A stretch of 64,000 nucleotides of DNA from IMG/VR virus record IMGVR_UViG_3300005288_000003, positions 33,841 to 97,840 of that record, one strand, 5' to 3'. Below are positions 19,363 to 24,776 of this stretch, in pieces. The notes beneath the pieces were generated by a model that had not been told where the DNA came from, ran no database searches, and saw nothing but the letters and a program-made list of their open reading frames with translations. Each line of letters opens with the position of its first letter. Positions within the stretch are counted from its first letter, which is position 1. The DNA comes from a virus. Both the position numbers and the translations under genes were made by a program.

Positions 19363-19434
19363 TGGAGCAGAATGTCAGAATCGAACTGACCTCATCAGCT
19401 TGGAAGGCTGGGCGCTCACCTTGAGCAATCCTGC
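19363..19434 (-). tRNA. tRNA-Gly (TCC)
   Basis: The acceptor GCAGGAT pairs with ATTCTGC, followed by T and an encoded CCA. The anticodon loop CTTCCAA sits between CAGC and GCTG, giving TCC. The T-arm is TCAG-TTCGATT-CTGA. It is overlapped by the 3' end of the HNH gene at 19375-19788. It is the last tRNA of the array in transcription order. Confidence 0.88.
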
Positions 19435-19788
19435 ATGAATTTCTCTATGACAGTTGGCACAGACCAGAATACACTTATCAACTTCTGCTAGCATCCTTTC
19501 GACGGTAGAGTAGTTGTTGATCAGACTCGATGGTTTGTTCTCTTTAACAGACGGGTCTACATGATGGAACTCCAGAGCCGCACTGCACTTATCGTATCCA
19601 CAGATAGAACAACTATCTCCGAACAGCTCGTACAGAATGCGACGCTTTTCTTCCACAAAAGAACGTCTGTTGTTTTCCTCGCAAGGTATGCACAAAGGTT
19701 TGTACTTTTGCTTACCGGAGGTTTGTTTGCCATTTGTATAGAACTCTGTCAAAGGTTTCACATCGAGGCAGGTTTTACACTGCTTCAT
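19375..19788 (-). CDS. HNH endonuclease in the tRNA array
   Basis: 137 aa from the ATG at 19788 (GAGG nine bases upstream); a longer frame would run into tRNA-Phe. It has an N-terminal zinc pair (CKTCLDVKPLTEFY ... CIPCEENNR), a second one (CSICGYDKC), and the HNH core ALEFHHVDP ... ILVCANCHREIHAG. The last about 20 codons overlap tRNA-Gly, and the final residues after HAGLLK look like read-through of tRNA sequence. It is probably a mobile, free-standing homing-type nuclease. It is likely transcribed with the tRNAs. Confidence 0.85.
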   Translation of the reverse strand: MKQCKTCLDVKPLTEFYTNGKQTSGKQKYKPLCIPCEENNRRSFVEEKRRILYELFGDSCSICGYDKCSAALEFHHVDPSVKENKPSSLINNYSTVERMLAEVDKCILVCANCHREIHAGLLKVSAQPSKLMRSVRF

Positions 19789-19812
19789 GTTTACCTCATT
19801 CAGTTTGTAATT

Positions 19813-19889
19813 TGGTGGGGCCGGAACGAATCGAACGTTCGACCTGTGGGGTTTCAAGCCACCGCTCTAACCTACTGAGCTACAACCCC
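19813..19889 (-). tRNA. tRNA-Phe (GAA)
   Basis: The acceptor GGGGTTG pairs with CGGCCCC, followed by A and an encoded CCA. The loop TTGAAAC gives anticodon GAA. The pair at positions 31-39 is C-C, a mismatch in the anticodon stem; the other stems are normal. Confidence 0.88.
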
Positions 19890-19894
19890 TTGTG

Positions 19895-19970
19895 TGGAGC
19901 CATCTATGGGAGTTGAACCCATCTATTACTGGTTTGCAATCAGCACCCTAGCCGCTCAGGCAAGATGGAC
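19895..19970 (-). tRNA. tRNA-Cys (GCA)
   Basis: The loop TTGCAAA gives anticodon GCA, the T-arm is ATGGG-TTCAACT-CCCAT, and CCA is encoded. The acceptor pairs CCATCT with AGATGG but the outermost pairs are poor, and the anticodon stem has one A-C mismatch. It is still the clear Cys gene. Confidence 0.78.
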
Positions 19971-19976
19971 ATAATT

Positions 19977-20053
19977 TGGTGGATACAGGTGGGGATCGAA
20001 CCCACGACATCCGCATTGCAAGTGCGGCGCTCTCCCATCTGAGCTACTGACCC
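19977..20053 (-). tRNA. tRNA-Ala (TGC)
   Basis: The anticodon arm CCGCA-CTTGCAA-TGCGG gives TGC, and CCA is encoded. The acceptor GGGTCAG pairs with CTG-ATCC if one T is bulged on the 3' side. The G3-U70 pair that AlaRS recognises is kept. The bulge is unusual. Confidence 0.82.
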
Positions 20054-20060
20054 ATGTGTT

Positions 20061-20134
20061 TGGGGTGACGCAGAGATTCGAACTCTTTCAACCGGGTCAC
20101 AACCGGAAGTCTCAGCCAGAGAGAACGACGCCAC
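20061..20134 (-). tRNA. tRNA-His (GTG)
   Basis: The loop TTGTGAC between CCGG and CCGG gives anticodon GTG. The acceptor GTGGCGT pairs with GCGTCAC and is followed by C73 and CCA; C73 is typical of tRNA-His. The T-stem is short (AGAG/CTCT). Confidence 0.82.
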
Positions 20135-20328
20135 AGTCAAGCGTGTTGCTTATCGCGTTTGCTGCCGCTTTCTCCCAGCGATACCCGAAGGCTTGATAGG
20201 ACGGTACGATGTCTGCCCTCACTGCACGAATGCTTTCGGGTATAACACCTTTTCAACAAAATTGGGTGCAGGACCGGGAGTGCATGCCCGAATTTCCCAA
20301 CCGTCTCCTTGACAGTTGCCTACATAAT
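20135..20328 (-). other. Gene-free stretch with a long inver­ted repeat between tRNA-His and the Pro-like tRNA
   Basis: No convincing gene is seen. ATACCCGAAGGC at 20181-20192 pairs with GCTTTCGGGTAT at 20232-20243 (11 of 12 Watson-Crick pairs plus one G-U when read on the plus strand). A CGGG/CCCG hairpin and a CCTGCACCCA-like end at 20265-20320 suggest a decayed tRNA. Function is unknown. Confidence 0.4.
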
Positions 20329-20402
20329 TGGTCAGGGTGGAAGGTAACGCTCCTTCTTCTCAGGATTCCAAATCCAGCACATCACTTTAATGCTTCACCG
20401 AG
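20329..20402 (-). tRNA. Degenerate tRNA-Pro-like gene (TGG)
   Basis: The 74-nt element has an encoded ACCA end and an anticodon loop TTTGGAA (TGG, Pro) with a weak stem. The D-stem AGCA/TGCT is present. The acceptor (CTCGGTG against CACCCTG) has two central mismatches, and the T-loop AGCGTTA lacks the usual TTCRA. It may be a pseudo-tRNA or a strongly deviating functional one. Confidence 0.45.
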
Positions 20403-20407
20403 ATAAA

Positions 20408-20533
20408 TCATTTCGTGATTCGAATACCGAACCACCAGAAGTCGATCCTTACGGACCAACGAGAATCGTTTTGTCCAAAGCCAACTCGCACCATACGGTT
20501 GTTGGGTTCCATTTGCACTTTATTGAATCTCAT
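20408..20533 (-). CDS. Small basic protein inside the tRNA array
   Basis: 41 aa from the ATG at 20533, with AGGAG seven bases upstream. It begins MRFNKVQMEPNNRMVRVGFG and ends with an aromatic, basic stretch (RIDFWWFGIRITK). It fits exactly between tRNA-Tyr and the Pro-like tRNA, so the space is used by this gene. No family is recognised. Confidence 0.6.
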   Translation of the reverse strand: MRFNKVQMEPNNRMVRVGFGQNDSRWSVRIDFWWFGIRITK

Positions 20534-20552
20534 TTCATACTCCTGTTTAAAT

Positions 20553-20637
20553 TGGTGGTTGTTCAAGGACTCGAACCTTGGATGTATCATTGTGCCGGGT
20601 TACAGCCGGTTCTCTTCGCCGCTAGAGTAAAACAACC
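20553..20637 (-). tRNA. tRNA-Tyr (GTA)
   Basis: The acceptor GGTTGTT pairs with AACAACC, followed by A and CCA. The loop CTGTAAC gives anticodon GTA. A long variable arm is present, as expected for bacterial-type tRNA-Tyr, and the T-arm is CAAGG-TTCGAGT-CCTTG. Confidence 0.9.
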
Positions 20638-20645
20638 ATTTAAAT

Positions 20646-20722
20646 TGGCAGGCAATAGAGGACTCGAACCTCCCATCTGCTGGTTAACAGCCAGCGACCC
20701 ACGCCCGGTGAGATCATTGCCT
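20646..20722 (-). tRNA. tRNA-Asn (GTT)
   Basis: The acceptor AGGCAAT pairs with ATTGCCT, followed by G and CCA. The anticodon arm GCTGG-CTGTTAA-CCAGC gives GTT. All arms pair well. Confidence 0.9.
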
Positions 20723-20823
20723 AGAAATCTTCCACGTATGTTTTGGCTCGCCGTGGAACGAGGGGCCGAGATTTTTATTCCGCTTCGGACGCAGAGCGGT
20801 ACAGTGGGGAGCAACCCAGTGTT

Positions 20824-20904
20824 TGGTTGCGAAGGGTGGAATCGAACCACTTGCGTCCGGTTATGAGCCGGTTGACACTTGCCTTGCGTCTTAGCGCCCT
20901 CGCA
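20824..20904 (-). tRNA. tRNA with CAT anticodon (Met, or Ile2)
   Basis: The acceptor TGCGAGG pairs with CTTCGCA, followed by A and CCA. The loop CTCATAA between ACCGG and CCGG gives anticodon CAT. The D-domain is several bases longer than usual (GACGC/GTGTC stem). Whether it reads AUG or, after lysidine modification, AUA cannot be told from sequence. Confidence 0.8.
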
Positions 20905-20910
20905 TTTGTT

Positions 20911-20986
20911 TGGTTGCCGGAGCAGGGCTTGAACCTGCGACCTACCGCTTATCAAGCAGTTGCTCTACCAACTGAGCTATCCGGCA
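20911..20986 (-). tRNA. tRNA-Ile (GAT)
   Basis: The acceptor TGCCGGA pairs with TCCGGCA, followed by A and CCA. The arm ACTGC-TTGATAA-GCGGT gives GAT. The D-arm AGCTCAGTTGGTAGAGC is canonical. Confidence 0.92.
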
Positions 20987-20992
20987 TTAAAT

Positions 20993-21066
20993 TGGTGCCC
21001 CATCACGGAATCGAACCGCATTCTCAACGTTACAAAGGTCATGTAATACCAATATACTAAAAGGGC
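20993..21066 (-). tRNA. tRNA-Thr (TGT)
   Basis: The acceptor GCCCTTT pairs with ATGGGGC (one T-T mismatch), followed by A and CCA. The loop TTTGTAA gives anticodon TGT. The anticodon stem is weak, with two G-U pairs and a C-C mismatch at 31-39. Confidence 0.78.
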
Positions 21067-21210
21067 ATGTAGCCCCTTACGAGGGCCATGCGGGCGTAGT
21101 TGCATCATGCTTGAGCCTTACCACAGGCCCACTTTACCGCGTTGATGTTTGCGGGATAAGCCTACCGAGATGGCTTTCTCATTGCGACATTTCTGTCCTC
21201 GGGCAACAAA
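21067..21210 (-). ncRNA. Candidate structured RNA between tRNA-Thr and tRNA-Asp
   Basis: About 144 bases with no plausible gene. Read on the minus strand it forms GACA-GAAA-TGTC inside TTGC/GCAA, a CCGC/GCGG stem, GCC/GGC hairpins, and a GCATG-GCCC ... GGGGC-CATGC stem at 21065-21091. GNRA tetraloops are typical of stable RNAs. Phage T4 also has stable RNAs of unknown function within its tRNA cluster. It is probably processed from the tRNA transcript. Confidence 0.5.
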
Positions 21211-21211
21211 T

Positions 21212-21286
21212 TGGCGGTTTATAAGGGAGTTGAACCCTTCCCTCTGGCGTGACAGGCCAGTGTACTAACCGATATACTAATAGACC
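21212..21286 (-). tRNA. tRNA-Asp (GTC)
   Basis: The acceptor GGTCTAT pairs with ATAAACC (one mismatch), followed by G and CCA. The arm CTGGC-CTGTCAC-GCCAG gives GTC, and G73 suits tRNA-Asp. Confidence 0.9.
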
Positions 21287-21290
21287 AAAT

Positions 21291-21367
21291 TGGTACTCTG
21301 CCGGGGACTCGAACCCCGTTCATGAGGGTGAAAACCTCATATCCTAAACCGCGTAGACGAGCAGAGC
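21291..21367 (-). tRNA. tRNA-Glu (TTC)
   Basis: The acceptor GCTCTGC pairs with GCAGAGT, followed by A and CCA. The arm TGAGG-TTTTCAC-CCTCA gives TTC. The T-arm is CGGGG-TTCGAGT-CCCCG. Confidence 0.92.
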
Positions 21368-21377
21368 ATTTGTTTCT

Positions 21378-21503
21378 TTACTTGGCAGAAGGTGGTTTAC
21401 CCGGCTTGCCTTTGTTCGGATGACGACCTTTAGGGTCTTTGCGAGAAGCCTTGTCAACCGGAGCGTGTTCTTTTGTAGCATCGTAATACTTCGACATCTT
21501 CAT
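21378..21503 (-). CDS. Small Lys/Pro-rich basic protein inside the tRNA array
   Basis: 41 aa from the ATG at 21503, preceded by AAAGGAGAA. It starts MKMSKYYDATKEHAPVDKAS and ends GRHPNKGKPGKPPSAK, strongly basic and probably disordered. It fills the gap between tRNA-Arg(ACG) and tRNA-Glu. The strong ribosome site and the tight fit support it as real. It might bind RNA, but no family is recognised. Confidence 0.7.
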   Translation of the reverse strand: MKMSKYYDATKEHAPVDKASRKDPKGRHPNKGKPGKPPSAK

Positions 21504-21522
21504 TTCTCCTTTGTTTTGAATT

Positions 21523-21598
21523 TGGTACAGATGATAGGATTCGAACCTATCTGGTACGCCTTCGTAGGGCGCTGCCTATCCAATCGAGCCACACCTGT
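21523..21598 (-). tRNA. tRNA-Arg (ACG)
   Basis: The acceptor ACAGGTG pairs with CATCTGT, followed by A and CCA. The loop CTACGAA gives anticodon ACG, which would be deaminated to ICG by host TadA. Confidence 0.9.
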
Positions 21599-21662
21599 AT
21601 ATCTTGTTGCTATAAGGAGGATTCTACACGACATTTGCACAATGTCAAGCGTTTATTTAAAA

Positions 21663-22113
21663 TTATTTTAGATTGTGATCAAATTCCCAATGGCAGTTCG
21701 GACAAAGAAGCATCAGGTTACTGCGGGCATTGATCACACTCAGCATCGTATCGTCAGGGAAGTCAGCCACTGCTCTGATATGTGCAACCTCTACGTGCTT
21801 ATCATATCCACACTTTTGACATAAAAACAGGCTCAGCAGCTACAGAGGCTCTTGCTCGACTGCGAACTAAAGCATAGGCGGAAGACCTATGATGTTTCTC
21901 GTAGATAGCTTCTGCAAGCGTCATATCCTTCACGATGTGAGCACTATGTTCATCACAGACAGTTCTTCGACCGCTTACAGGGATTGAACATACTTTACAC
22001 GCTCTTTGTACTCTGGCTCTCTTCGGCGTCTTGTTCGTCACTGTTGTGGCACAAGTCCTACTGCAATATTTTCTATTCTTTGTGGGCGTTCCACAATTTC
22101 CGCAATCGATCAT
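21663..22113 (-). pseudogene. HNH endonuclease gene with a frameshift
   Basis: The first frame starts at 22113 (MIDCGNCGTPTKNRKYCSRT) with two zinc pairs (CGNC ... CSRTC and CKVC) and runs into a stop near 21802. The +1 frame then continues the protein as CQKCGYDKHVEVAHIRAVAD ... LMLLCPNCHWEFDHN, a typical HNH end, to 21663. The join is at a run of five T on the minus strand; one T fewer restores the frame. Either the gene is a decayed homing nuclease, or the site slips during translation, or it is a sequencing error. Confidence 0.75.
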
Positions 22114-22126
22114 GATGCTCCTTATT

Positions 22127-22201
22127 TGGTAGACCTGCTTGGGATCAAACCAAGACTAACTCTTTAGAAGAGAGTTGTGCGATTCACTACACTACAAGTC
22201 C
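22127..22201 (-). tRNA. tRNA-Arg (TCT)
   Basis: The acceptor GGACTTG pairs with CAGGTCT, followed by A and CCA. The arm ACTCT-CTTCTAA-AGAGT gives TCT, which reads the rare AGA/AGG codons. Confidence 0.9.
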
Positions 22202-22349
22202 AGAAGGCTCCTGCACATCCACTGTACCAATCCAGCATGCTGCTATCACAATCAAGACCCTTAATTCGAGGACGACATTTATAGCACGCAGTCGTCTGTG
22301 CGTCAACACCCTGAGTTGGTTTCAGAGTCATACCAAGGCGCGGTACGTT
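22202..22349 (-). other. Spacer between tRNA-Arg(TCT) and tRNA-Gln
   Basis: No tRNA is seen here. It holds the promoter at 22278-22306. A 55-codon Cys-rich frame (22164-22331, MTLKPTQGVDAQTTACYKC...) crosses the promoter and tRNA-Arg and lacks a ribosome site, so it was not called. Confidence 0.4.
22278..22306 (-). promoter_or_regulatory. Promoter inside the tRNA array
   Basis: Minus-strand TTGACG, a 17-base spacer and TATAAA lie 77 bases upstream of tRNA-Arg(TCT). It could drive the left half of the array independently. An ACGCA/TGCGT inverted repeat lies within the spacer. Confidence 0.6.
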
Positions 22350-22425
22350 TGGAAGAGGATACTGGAATCGAACCAGTCTAAACGGAGTCAAAGTCCGGTG
22401 CCTAACGCCAATCGGCCAACCCTCA
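22350..22425 (-). tRNA. tRNA-Gln (TTG)
   Basis: The loop CTTTGAC between CCGGA and TCCG gives TTG. The acceptor GAGGGT pairs with ATCCTC, the first position is an unpaired T as in tRNA-Gln generally, and CCA is encoded. Confidence 0.88.
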
Positions 22426-22567
22426 ATTAAATAGTACCGGCCATCAGGAAAGACATGGCCATGCCCTCCATCCGACCTAGTTGACTTCCTCTGTATTCTT
22501 TGTAGGCTCCAATACCCAGTATCACCTGCCGGGGCTCGAACCCGGTATACAGTTACTCATCAATGTT
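22426..22567 (-). other. Gene-free stretch with a tRNA T-arm remnant
   Basis: About 140 bases without a gene. CCGGG-TTCGAGC-CCCGG at 22532-22548 (minus strand) is a perfect T-arm, but no acceptor, anticodon arm or CCA accompanies it. It is best read as the relic of a lost tRNA gene. Confidence 0.45.
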
Positions 22568-22654
22568 TGGTGCCCCCAGTCGGACTCGAACCGACACGCA
22601 TATTTCAGCCACAGGGTCTAAGCCTGCTACGTCTACCAATTCCATCACAGGGAC
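22568..22654 (-). tRNA. tRNA-Leu (TAG)
   Basis: The acceptor GTCCCTG pairs with TGGGGGC region, CCA is encoded, and the loop CTTAGAC between CAGG and CCTG gives TAG. It has a long variable arm, as expected of tRNA-Leu. Confidence 0.9.
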
Positions 22655-22668
22655 GTGATATTTCAATT

Positions 22669-22742
22669 TGGTGCTTCTTGATGGAATCGAACCACCGTAG
22701 CCACCGTGTAAGGATGGCGTTCTACCATTAAACTAAAGAAGC
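22669..22742 (-). tRNA. tRNA-Val (TAC)
   Basis: The acceptor GCTTCTT pairs with AAGAAGC, followed by A and CCA. The arm CCATC-CTTACAC-GGTGG gives TAC. Confidence 0.92.
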
Positions 22743-22743
22743 T

Positions 22744-22828
22744 TGGTCGGGATAGTGAGACTCGAACTCACATGGCCGAAGCCCACAGGGTTTGAACCTG
22801 CTGCGAATACCAGTTCCGCCACATCCCG
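22744..22828 (-). tRNA. tRNA-Leu (CAA)
   Basis: The acceptor CGGGAT pairs with ATCCCG, followed by A and CCA. The loop TTCAAAC between CAGG and CCTG gives CAA. A long variable arm with a TTCG-type loop (GGGCTTCGGCC) is present. Confidence 0.9.
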
Positions 22829-22834
22829 TTTATT

Positions 22835-22923
22835 TGGAGGCTAGTGTGAGATTCGAACTCACGAGCCGTTTCCGACTGTCGGTTTTCAAGACCGGTGCTT
22901 TTTATCCACTCAGCCAACTAGCC
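22835..22923 (-). tRNA. tRNA-Ser (TGA)
   Basis: The acceptor GGCTAGT pairs with ACTAGCC, followed by T and CCA. The arm CCGGT-CTTGAAA-ACCGA gives TGA. A long variable arm (GTCGGAAACGGC) is present. Confidence 0.92.
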
Positions 22924-22929
22924 ATGTTT

Positions 22930-23019
22930 TGGTAGCGGATGTAGGATTCGAACCTACGGGGCCATTTCTGACCCGACGCTTTAGCAAAGCGTTAGATTAA
23001 GCCACTCTCTCAATCCGCT
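22930..23019 (-). tRNA. tRNA-Ser (GCT)
   Basis: The acceptor AGCGGAT pairs with ATCCGCT, followed by A and CCA. The arm ACGCT-TTGCTAA-AGCGT gives GCT. A long variable arm is present. Confidence 0.92.
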
Positions 23020-23137: not shown

Positions 23138-23455
23138 TCAACCATGTAGTTGGAAAATTGTTGCTGATGGTGCTTCACCGTTGCCGACATCTTCACCCTC
23201 GCCACGAGCGATAGCCTTCAAAGCCTTGTCAGCCTTCAATAGAGCTACATACATGTTGGCGATGTCCTGTGCCATTTTGAATTGCTTCTCTGGCGTCAGG
23301 TTGTCTGCGGTTGCTGCTTCGACCATACGATTCAGAGCAGGGCCAAAGGCGCGCTTGAGGATTCGTAGGCCACCATCTAGTTCTGAGCGTTCTGCTGACT
23401 TCGCTAGAGCTTCCTCTCGCGTCGGTCTGCCACCCTTGTTTGGTGTTGTTGACAT
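23138..23455 (-). CDS. Small helical protein, possible small terminase
   Basis: 105 aa. It starts MSTTPNKGGRPTREEALAKS and continues as a helical protein (GGLRILKRAFGPALNRMVEA, then EKQFKMAQDIANMYVALLKA). The GRPTxxEA start is common in small terminase subunits and in other small DNA-binding phage proteins. It heads the tRNA transcript, behind a structured leader and the promoter at 23569-23597. A terminase role would fit the phage, but separation from the large subunit makes this uncertain. Confidence 0.65.
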   Translation of the reverse strand: MSTTPNKGGRPTREEALAKSAERSELDGGLRILKRAFGPALNRMVEAATADNLTPEKQFKMAQDIANMYVALLKADKALKAIARGEGEDVGNGEAPSATIFQLHG

Positions 23456-23562
23456 ATGTCATCGTTCCTTCAAATAGGTGTGATCCGTGGAATTACTCGG
23501 TGAAAGGAGGAGAACACCAAAACCCGGATCACATAAACTGTAGAGACATTATCTGTCTGTAT
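23456..23562 (-). promoter_or_regulatory. Structured leader of the tRNA-array transcript
   Basis: On the minus strand the leader folds as CACATA ... TATGTG with an inner AGACA-GATAA-TGTCT hairpin, then TGTGATCCG ... CGGATCACA (9 bp). Inside the latter, a GGTG/CACC stem displays the loop TTCTCCTCCTTT. That loop resembles the 16S anti-Shine-Dalgarno sequence. It may control translation of the 23138-23455 gene. The folding is by eye. Confidence 0.5.
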
Positions 23563-23568
23563 GTGATG

Positions 23569-23597
23569 ATTGTAACATCAGTTCTTGCACCTGTCAA
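23569..23597 (-). promoter_or_regulatory. Promoter of the tRNA-array transcript
   Basis: Minus-strand TTGACA, a 17-base spacer and TACAAT match the sigma70 consensus. A TGATG/CATCA inverted repeat flanks the -10 element. It lies between two leftward genes and drives 23138-23455 and the tRNAs. Confidence 0.75.
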
Positions 23598-23618
23598 TAG
23601 CACAGAAGAAATATAATG

Positions 23619-23819
23619 TCAATAATCTGTTGTTGATGATTTCATGGCTGTCACACCATCGATGGGATACCGCCCGCCTACATACTCTCTTTCAGGTGCG
23701 GAATGCTTGCTCATAAATTGGCATGCAAAACACAAATCTTCTTCTTGTTTTGTATCTGGATTATATCGAGGGATTTCATGTTTTGTTAGCGCGTTATTAC
23801 ATGCTCTGCATCGGGACAT
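23619..23819 (-). CDS. Zinc-ribbon protein of unknown function
   Basis: 66 aa, start ATG at 23819 with AAGGA eight bases upstream. Two Cys pairs (CRACNNALTKHE and LCFACQFM) form a treble-clef or ribbon; the tail (YVGGRYPIDGVTAMKSSTTDY) is short. Similar small zinc proteins are common in phages, with unknown roles. It is downstream of the structured RNA at 23.9-24.2 kb and could be translated from the same transcript. Confidence 0.7.
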   Translation of the reverse strand: MSRCRACNNALTKHEIPRYNPDTKQEEDLCFACQFMSKHSAPEREYVGGRYPIDGVTAMKSSTTDY

Positions 23820-23909
23820 GGATTGGTTCCTTCTATTGGTTTGTTATTTCACATAGTCTCCTTCTATATTTCATATGATGATGGATTGTATGTGGATGGG
23901 TTAAGTGGT

Positions 23910-24223
23910 TGATTTATAAGATGTTGATCTTATGGGGATAGATTCTTAACGGAAGGTAGACTCAGCCCAAGGGATCGCCATACACAAAAGTGCCTAAGAC
24001 GAAACCTTGGTCTACCTTCCACAAGTTCTCATGAGGATGAGTTCTTGAACGGCCTGTATGGACAGGAGACAGCGTTTGCTGTCAGGTTCTGGTCATTCCC
24101 TCCGAAGAGGTCAGCTCCACGCTATAACCAGATGAGACTCAGCTTGCCCGTGTGGAATCCTCTTCATGGGCTACATCGTTGGCCGGTGAGTGATGCTTTC
24201 GCAGACATATCTCTCCAACGACA
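23910..24223 (-). ncRNA. Candidate large structured non-coding RNA
   Basis: A minus-strand promoter at 24230-24258 predicts a start near 24223, three bases before the first helix. Helices in order are CGTTGG/CCAACG (24215-24220 with 24077-24182) enclosing TGC-GAAA-GCA; GCCC/GGGC; CTGGT/ACCAG enclosing CCTC-TTCG-GAGG; GACAGC-AAAC-GCTGTC; CCTGT-CCAT-ACAGG; a two-part hairpin at 24022-24047; GGAAGGTAGAC/GTCTACCTTCC with CCAAGG/CCTTGG (23951-24020); and ATAAGAT-CAAC-ATCTTAT (23916-23933). No reading frame with a ribosome site lies inside. It is next to the tRNA array. No known family was recognised. Confidence 0.65.
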
Positions 24224-24229
24224 TTCACG

Positions 24230-24258
24230 ACTATAACCGACAAGCGGCTTAATGTCAA
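24230..24258 (-). promoter_or_regulatory. Promoter of the structured RNA
   Basis: Minus-strand TTGACA (24253-24258), a 17-base spacer and TATAGT (24230-24235) make a near-consensus sigma70 promoter. It points away from the early genes, divergent from the plus-strand promoter 24 bases to the right. Confidence 0.75.
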
Positions 24259-24281
24259 GCAATATATCTCATTCCAGTGTA

Positions 24282-24310
24282 TTGACAACTCAGATAGGCA
24301 GTGTTACTAT
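24282..24310 (+). promoter_or_regulatory. Early plus-strand promoter
   Basis: TTGACA, a 17-base spacer and TACTAT precede the first rightward gene by 32 bases. A GATAG/CTATC inverted repeat overlaps the -10. It drives the operon beginning at 24342. Confidence 0.78.
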
Positions 24311-24341
24311 CGAGCTTCAATTCACAGAAAGGAGAACTACA

Positions 24342-24776
24342 ATGACAGAATTCGTTGATGTAGTAGAAGTCAATCCGATAGTGTTTGTCAACAAAATTGT
24401 TGAACAGATTGCGAAAGGCTTCTACGTGCAGAACACAATCGCTGGATACCCGCTGGTTGGCCTGCCTTACCAAATCCGGCTCTTCGAGACTGACGAACCA
24501 GAAGTCCGCAACAAACTGGACAGCGAGGTTCACACAGTCGTCGTTGAAGGCTACGACATCATGCGTTGGTTGCTCGACGTGCAAGACGTGGCCCTGCAAG
24601 GATTCGTTATGTCGCTCACAGGAGCCTCTGTAGACAACTACAAGAGCGTTACGATGTCCAAGCCTGCACCCGTCAAGTTCGACCTCGGAATCGTCGCAGA
24701 GAAGCCTGTAGAAGCTCCAGCAGCTAAACCGAAACGTACAACCAAATCTAAACCAACTCAAGGAGAAACAGAATGA
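24342..24776 (+). CDS. Early protein of unknown function with basic tail
   Basis: 144 aa from the ATG at 24342, which has AAAGGAG seven bases upstream and follows the promoter. It begins MTEFVDVVEVNPIVFVNKIV and ends with a Lys/Pro/Thr-rich tail (PAAKPKRTTKSKPTQGETE). No domain is recognised. It is the first gene of the rightward operon and overlaps the next start by four bases. Confidence 0.75.
   Translation: MTEFVDVVEVNPIVFVNKIVEQIAKGFYVQNTIAGYPLVGLPYQIRLFETDEPEVRNKLDSEVHTVVVEGYDIMRWLLDVQDVALQGFVMSLTGASVDNYKSVTMSKPAPVKFDLGIVAEKPVEAPAAKPKRTTKSKPTQGETE

Follow-up and report, generated by a model that had tools for sequence, protein, structure and literature searches.

A conserved, previously uncatalogued structured RNA with matched loops in Pseudomonas phages and divergent relatives

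The Locus

The window (the whole 64,000-nt stretch of viral DNA that was analyzed) carries on its minus strand a promoter, a structured RNA of ~300 nt from its predicted start to the R2 hairpin, and a small gene:

24230..24258, minus strand: sigma70-type promoter TTGACA-17-TATAGT, 11/12 matches to the consensus
23924..24223, minus strand: structured RNA, with a predicted 5' end at ~24223 and an approximate 3' boundary (the end of the R2 hairpin), supported by folding, covariation, and homology in 183 phage records
23619..23819, minus strand: small CxxC (zinc-ribbon-like) gene of PHROG 10364, unknown function, the first long open reading frame (ORF) of the same transcript

Downstream of the RNA on the same strand, ARAGORN placed 18 tRNAs at 19363-23019, and it detected no tRNA or tmRNA in 23900-24260.

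A sequence-only reading of this DNA had described a ~310-nt RNA with its own near-consensus minus-strand promoter and a predicted start close to the first helix. The promoter is borne out: at 24258-24230 (−), it is the joint best in the 6.3 kb scanned. The RNA is predicted to start at ~24223, and the first paired base of helix P1 is 24221, two bases on. Moreover, in 18/18 copies from the nine phage genomes examined, a sigma70-like promoter is placed such that the end of its −10 box lies 7 to 9 nt before the first P1 pair, and P1 is therefore the 5' end of the predicted transcript. Homology detected by blastn also begins close to the predicted start. What does not clearly stand is the free-standing status of the RNA, because no terminator precedes the next gene.

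Two further observations concern promoters. Within the operon, at 23597-23569 (−), there is another near-consensus promoter, TTGACA-17-TACAAT with TG, upstream of the gene at 23138-23455 and the tRNA array. Also, in a podovirus-like group (L101, L105, L108, L110, and L111), no sigma70 promoter is evident before the RNA, which begins shortly after a terminator-like hairpin (AGCCAGYC...GGGYTTTT).

Fold and Covariation

Thermodynamic folding of minus-strand 23900-24223 (324 nt) gave −105.6 kcal/mol (z = −3.33 versus dinucleotide shuffles, with 0/100 shuffles as good). The hairpin-packed fold and the long-range stem that had been read from the sequence are both recovered in about eight helices, with a GAAA loop, a UUCG loop, and a long stem of 10 + 6 bp (24020-23951). 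The earlier reading missed the P3 pseudoknot, which is an addition of the present analysis. The parts of the RNA are as follows:

24215..24221, minus strand: P1 5' strand UCGUUGG, pairing with 24176-24182
24176..24182, minus strand: P1 3' strand CCAACGA, pairing with 24215-24221
24183..24213, minus strand: P1 head, a near-invariant internal loop GAGAUAUGUC ... CACUCACCGG with a GAAA hairpin cap, from invariant alignment columns
24146..24171, minus strand: P2 (24171-24168 with 24149-24146) around a conserved AUGAAGAGG loop; 100% of cells paired, two-sided changes at 3/4 pairs
24116..24156, minus strand: P3 pseudoknot, UCCAC (24156-24152) with GUGGA (24120-24116); 5/5 pairs in 30/30 sequences
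24088..24132, minus strand: P4 (24132-24127 with 24093-24088), a UUCG-capped hairpin; two-sided changes at 6/6 pairs, 97.8% paired
24053..24083, minus strand: P5 (24083-24068) and P6 (24066-24053) hairpins; two-sided changes at 3/3 P6 pairs
24022..24047, minus strand: R1 hairpin, with repeat R1 = AUCCUCAUGAGA at 24038-24027; its loop equals the R2 loop within each RNA
23951..24020, minus strand: terminal long stem with the conserved internal loop GUC-UUAGGC...GUAUGGC; covariation in helices 7-9 of the scored set
23924..23944, minus strand: R2 hairpin, with repeat R2 = AUCCCCAUAAGA at 23939-23928; 10/12 positions identical to R1 here

About 50 positions are invariant in the RNA alignment, and the P1 head is common to Pseudomonas, Vibrio, and metagenomic members. 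The P5 hairpin is variable among homologues and absent in some.

Covariation, which had been proposed as a check on the fold, was examined in an alignment of 30 divergent homologue sequences and supports it strongly. RNAalifold predicted 40 pairs, 29 of them with compensatory two-sided changes. For scoring, the pseudoknot was added and two uncertain pairs were dropped, giving a set of 42 pairs in which 96.2% of cells are paired, versus 78.7% when shuffled and 34 to 46% when partners were slid by 1 to 3 columns. Two-sided changes occur at 32/42 pairs (0/500 shuffles), and the covariation score is 0.51, versus 0.18 for shuffled and at most 0.11 for slid partners. The P3 pseudoknot is formed by eight different helices, with all five pairs kept throughout the alignment, versus 12% in the swapped control. 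Across the wide family, P1 takes the form of 29 distinct helices, with 6.86/7 positions paired, versus 3.79/7 with strands swapped. Paired alignment cells include 106 G-U but only 9 A-C combinations, and the minus strand is therefore the RNA.

Divergent promoter regions are frequently conserved, and so conservation on its own would be compatible with a chance fold or with a conserved DNA element, such as a promoter or origin, that has no RNA role. The two-sided changes refute this explanation, and the G-U to A-C asymmetry fixes the strand; we give it practically no credence.

As the sequence-only reading had stated, there is no gene inside the RNA: overlying ORFs are short, lie on both strands, and are not conserved, and no coding match was found. 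Public annotations of L006 (phage Bitten), L010, L030, and L121 put several hypothetical proteins over the RNA, and these ORFs are probably spurious.

A search of 4,227 Rfam 15 families, counting covariance-model scores at or above the gathering threshold, returned only tRNA matches in the window and in 13 divergent loci. When E values up to 5 were admitted for 23400-24700, there were three subthreshold chance matches, none of them on the RNA strand inside the RNA. The earlier statement that the RNA resembles no recognized large RNA is thus upheld, and a literature search found no paper describing it. We regard it as nearly certain that the RNA is real, conserved, and uncatalogued.

Distribution and Copy Number

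By blastn, the RNA occurs in about 183 phage records, nearly all from Pseudomonas phages (Pakpunavirus, Otagovirus, Flaumdravirus, and relatives). A scan of viral contigs for the P1-head pattern recovered divergent relatives, and divergent members are present in phiPMW and in Vibrio and metagenomic phages. When the 5' domain was modeled from 20 Pseudomonas-phage-like sequences alone, the resulting covariance model matched most of the untrained divergent members at E values of 1e-8 to 1e-30, Plaisancevirus phiPMW at 2e-6, and Vibrio phage 1.133.O at 3e-5. The family criteria (the P1 head, P2 with a GAAGA loop, and P4) are met in members outside the model training.

Applied to whole records, the covariance model detected exactly two copies in 12/12 Pseudomonas phages of the group, including the genome of the window; PAK_P4, Ab1, phiPsa374, and ventosus are among the two-copy phages. 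The second copy in the genome of the window lies outside the window, at about G000:C1 22308-21990 (−) (L120:1993-2311), where it has its own TTGACA-16-TAGAAT promoter and heads a DUF4326 gene. Neither the covariance model nor the pattern found a copy in PAK_P5 (Nankokuvirus). Matches in genome contigs, sought as chromosomal carriers, are at chance level except for L087, and 118 Vibrio genomes gave no match in a search that lacked a positive control. L087 (contig JAHFOH010000003.1) is assigned to a Thaumarchaeota metagenome-assembled genome (MAG), and its RNA is accompanied by tRNA genes and by genes for PhoH-like and ClpP-like proteins; the contig evidently stems from an Otagovirus-like phage and entered the archaeal MAG through a binning error.

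These data establish a family of pseudoknotted ~300-nt RNAs, conserved and uncatalogued, that start directly after a strong sigma70-type promoter, each genome of these Pseudomonas phages having two. The original claim of an undescribed structured RNA, having passed the Rfam, coding, covariation, and promoter tests, therefore holds and extends to a family that was previously uncatalogued.

Two Loops That Match Each Other

The R1 and R2 hairpins flank the terminal stem, and the repeats are spaced about 93 to 106 nt apart in the Pseudomonas-phage copies and 75 to 90 nt apart in several other groups. Within one RNA, both loops carry the same ~6- to 12-nt sequence, which differs between RNAs; loop sequences seen twice within one RNA include AUCUACGAGA, AGCGUCAUGAG, and CCAGCCUAAUUGAAUU, and the Vibrio phage RNA also carries a repeat (UAGAGCAGU). 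In most genomes, the R sequence differs even between the two copies, as in the genome of the window, where the repeat of copy 2 is AUCUACAC, unlike that of copy 1. R1 and R2 are identical at 12/12 positions in ventosus and UAVern. Single-base differences between relatives occur in both repeats (e.g., AUCUAC to AUCUGC and GCGUC to GUGUC), and in L004 and L023, the downstream protein is unchanged although R differs.

Because searching for the best-matching R pairs gives high scores by chance alone (10-mers reach 8), the identity of R1 and R2 rests on an anchored test and on the constant spacing. In the anchored test, 26 distinct R1/R2 pairs agree at 7.35/9 positions, versus 4.28 when swapped, and the former figure is depressed by a few mis-anchored rows.

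No consistent complement of R exists within the RNA, which led us to reject a cis switch based on competition between R1 and R2 for an anti-R sequence. There is no exact third copy of R in the window's own genome, phiPMW, or G003. An 8-mer complement of copy-1 R is absent from genomes W08 and W13, and a trans target in the phage genome was rejected accordingly; other genomes contain only scattered 8-mer matches to the complement of R, for which a shared position was not assessed. The matching, fast-changing loops suggest a mechanism that nobody has described. It is possible, though we doubt it, that this is a class of phage RNA that depends on two loops identical to each other and otherwise free, a self-matched address (RNA-guided, template-switching, or paired-docking) unseen in known noncoding RNAs.

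Position in Operons

Scanning the 450 nt 3' of the RNA revealed no terminator-like site in any of the 18 copies, and in the window, the minus strand has none from 24223 to 21891. Copy 1, which lies ahead of the tRNA array, begins a same-strand run of 18 to 37 kb in 9/9 genomes according to a crude ORF count. The same count for copy 2 gave a clear run in two of the nine (W08 and W11), a partial one in another, and short or zero runs in six, which we attribute to spurious ORFs from noisy ORF picking. The annotation of phiPsa374 shows copy 2 at the head of a run that extends from 60.2 kb to at least 75 kb and takes in primase/helicase and DNA polymerase genes. Copy 1 thus demonstrably stands at the start of a long series of codirectional genes, as does copy 2 where annotation is clean; for copy 2, this rests on a small number of genomes, since most of the nine gave a failed or short automatic count. 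Because no terminator precedes the next gene and the RNA heads long operons, the RNA is no less likely to be a 5' leader than a free-standing molecule.

The surroundings of the RNA are otherwise not fixed. It lies at divergent gene junctions in phiPMW, L038, and L048; in the L045/L059 group, the upstream genes are on the same strand, and so a divergent junction is not a constant feature. The next gene encodes the small CxxC protein after copy 1 and a DUF4326 protein after copy 2, and in other phages, it encodes a helicase, an EF-Ts-like fragment, an HNH protein, or a GIY-YIG protein. The CxxC gene was found in 184 records by tblastn, versus 183 records with the RNA. Because the next gene varies, the RNA, and not one neighbor, is the constant element. 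In most genomes, the gene after copy 1 starts about 60 to 130 nt after R2. Many members of the copy-2 and phiPMW types have a Shine-Dalgarno sequence and start codon immediately after R2.

Known Systems and Possible Functions

A leader acting in cis on transcription fits an RNA that begins at the +1 of long operons, occurs twice per genome, lacks a terminator, and is indifferent to the next gene. We tentatively propose, at somewhat less than even confidence, that the RNA is an operon leader that modifies transcription by put-like antitermination; this is inferred, as there are no transcript or antitermination data. A 2017 transcriptome study of PAK_P4 (Blasdel et al.) might show a transcript of this RNA. 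As a 5' leader, the RNA would fold on leaving RNA polymerase, its invariant P1 head and P2/P3 pseudoknot would bind either the elongation complex or an elongation factor of the host, and transcription would thereby continue across the tRNA array, which is not translated, and the remainder of the operon. Such RNA-encoded processive antitermination would work like that of HK022 put, with an RNA that is far larger and unrelated. The identical R1 and R2 loops may serve as two docking sites for one partner, which is a guess.

Operon-head RNA hairpins are familiar from the lambdoid nut sites (boxB), whose loops are alike at the sites within a given phage but vary from one phage to another. Here, by contrast, the matching loops sit within one RNA and differ between the two RNAs of one phage, and a single phage-wide loop-reading protein therefore does not fit. 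The put RNAs of HK022 occur twice per genome, downstream of early promoters (putL just after its promoter), have no dedicated protein partner, and share a fold despite their differences (PMC9378689). Like putL and putR, the phage RNA heads operons and is present twice per genome, with the copy-2 run clear in some genomes only. However, put is ~70 nt with two stem-loops, whereas the phage RNA is ~300 nt with nine or more helices, a pseudoknot, an invariant P1 head, and R1/R2, and there is no sequence or structural relation. Also, put suppresses termination by binding the zinc-binding domain of the RNA polymerase β' subunit, whereas antitermination by the phage RNA is only inferred. The fourfold difference in size and the lack of a common sequence or fold weaken the leader reading, as does the fact that antitermination predicts no pair of loops that match each other yet are free in sequence.

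Alternatively, the RNA could be a stable noncoding RNA that acts in trans, possibly as an RNA-only or RNA-protein particle like GOLLD and ROOL, and is freed by processing from the beginning of the operon transcript, with the downstream gene merely next to it. We consider this unlikely, but it cannot be excluded. The ornate fold, the pseudoknot, and the many invariant positions speak for it, as do copies that adjoin unrelated genes and the retention of the RNA in KIL1, Y1-MI, and 16Q, where homing-endonuclease genes lie between it and its usual neighbor; conversely, there is no terminator or evident processing site, and many copy-2 members have the Shine-Dalgarno sequence of the following gene immediately adjoining R2. 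GOLLD and ROOL are ornate phage RNAs that often lie close to tRNA islands; pseudoknots occur in ROOL, and Rfam holds profiles of both (PMC12286853). Assembly into a homo-oligomeric nanocage is a further mark of GOLLD and ROOL. The parallel that had been drawn to them holds insofar as the window has an ornate, pseudoknotted RNA beside a tRNA array; nevertheless, copy 2 and most divergent members have no nearby tRNA, so that the analogy rests on location only and the tRNA neighborhood is not a defining trait. Moreover, many GOLLD members exceed 800 nt (PMC12286853), and the Rfam models gave no match here. The related Pseudomonas phage PAK_P3 expresses two intergenic RNAs, sRNA1 and sRNA2, one of them between tRNAs, that are abundant late (PMC4933390); these are likewise intergenic, but they are ~100 nt, and sRNA1 lies in a 200-bp gap. 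Identity with them was rejected, as PAK_P5, classed in the same species (Nankokuvirus PAKP3), has no matches by pattern or model; PAK_P3 itself was not in the search.

A translational or ligand-responsive, riboswitch-like leader for the adjacent gene, with R2 beside its ribosome-binding site, appears improbable. The near-invariant P1 head does resemble a binding pocket, the Shine-Dalgarno sequence follows R2 in many copy-2 and phiPMW-type members, and copy 1 co-occurs with the CxxC gene. However, the genes downstream of members differ in kind (CxxC, DUF4326, HNH, GIY-YIG, helicase, and EF-Ts-like), a variety that speaks against regulation of any single gene, the copy-1 gene lies at a distance from R2 in most genomes, and the RNA offers no consistent R complement for an R1/R2 switch. 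More improbable still is a guide or template RNA, in which R1 would recognize DNA (its own flank being R2) or R1 and R2 would be matched ends for a template jump, such that identity matters and sequence is free. This would account for the identity of the loops, their divergence between RNAs and genome copies, and their shared single-base changes without a third partner, and the absence of a complement in W08 and W13 and of an exact third copy in phiPMW and G003 is in its favor. Nevertheless, the RNA itself shows no sign of mobility, and no reverse transcriptase or TnpB partner was detected in these phages: PF00078 (with control genomes positive, although divergent reverse transcriptases could escape) and PF07282 (TnpB/Cas12f-like) were found in 0/8 phage records.

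Whichever function applies, the predicted transcripts of major operons in Pseudomonas aeruginosa phages (Pakpunavirus and relatives) begin with a large conserved RNA that is mostly unannotated or hidden under spurious ORFs. Should this RNA control transcription, it would provide RNA-encoded antitermination by an element several times as large as put. The R1/R2 loops, which change in concert, pose a sharp puzzle that is easily tested genetically, and a searchable model now exists for the family, whose members extend to Vibrio and uncultured phages.

The Region Past R2

Several observations concern the region between the RNA and the gene that follows. In the window, a start-stop minimal ORF (ATG TGA, 23849-23854, minus strand) with a strong AGAAGGAG ribosome site lies between the RNA and the CxxC gene; many Otagovirus relatives have ATG AAA TAA at this place, and in Pakpunavirus, the real gene begins there. 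Homing-endonuclease-like genes (HNH and GIY-YIG) occur soon after the RNA in both copies of KIL1 (copy 1 being L028), in copy 2 of Y1-MI, and in L027 (16Q), and one such gene is fused to a DUF4326-like tail. The region past R2 looks as if it were an insertion hot spot. Finally, the small protein encoded after the RNA in L048 (4942-5259) weakly matches the N-terminal domain of EF-Ts (E = 0.011).
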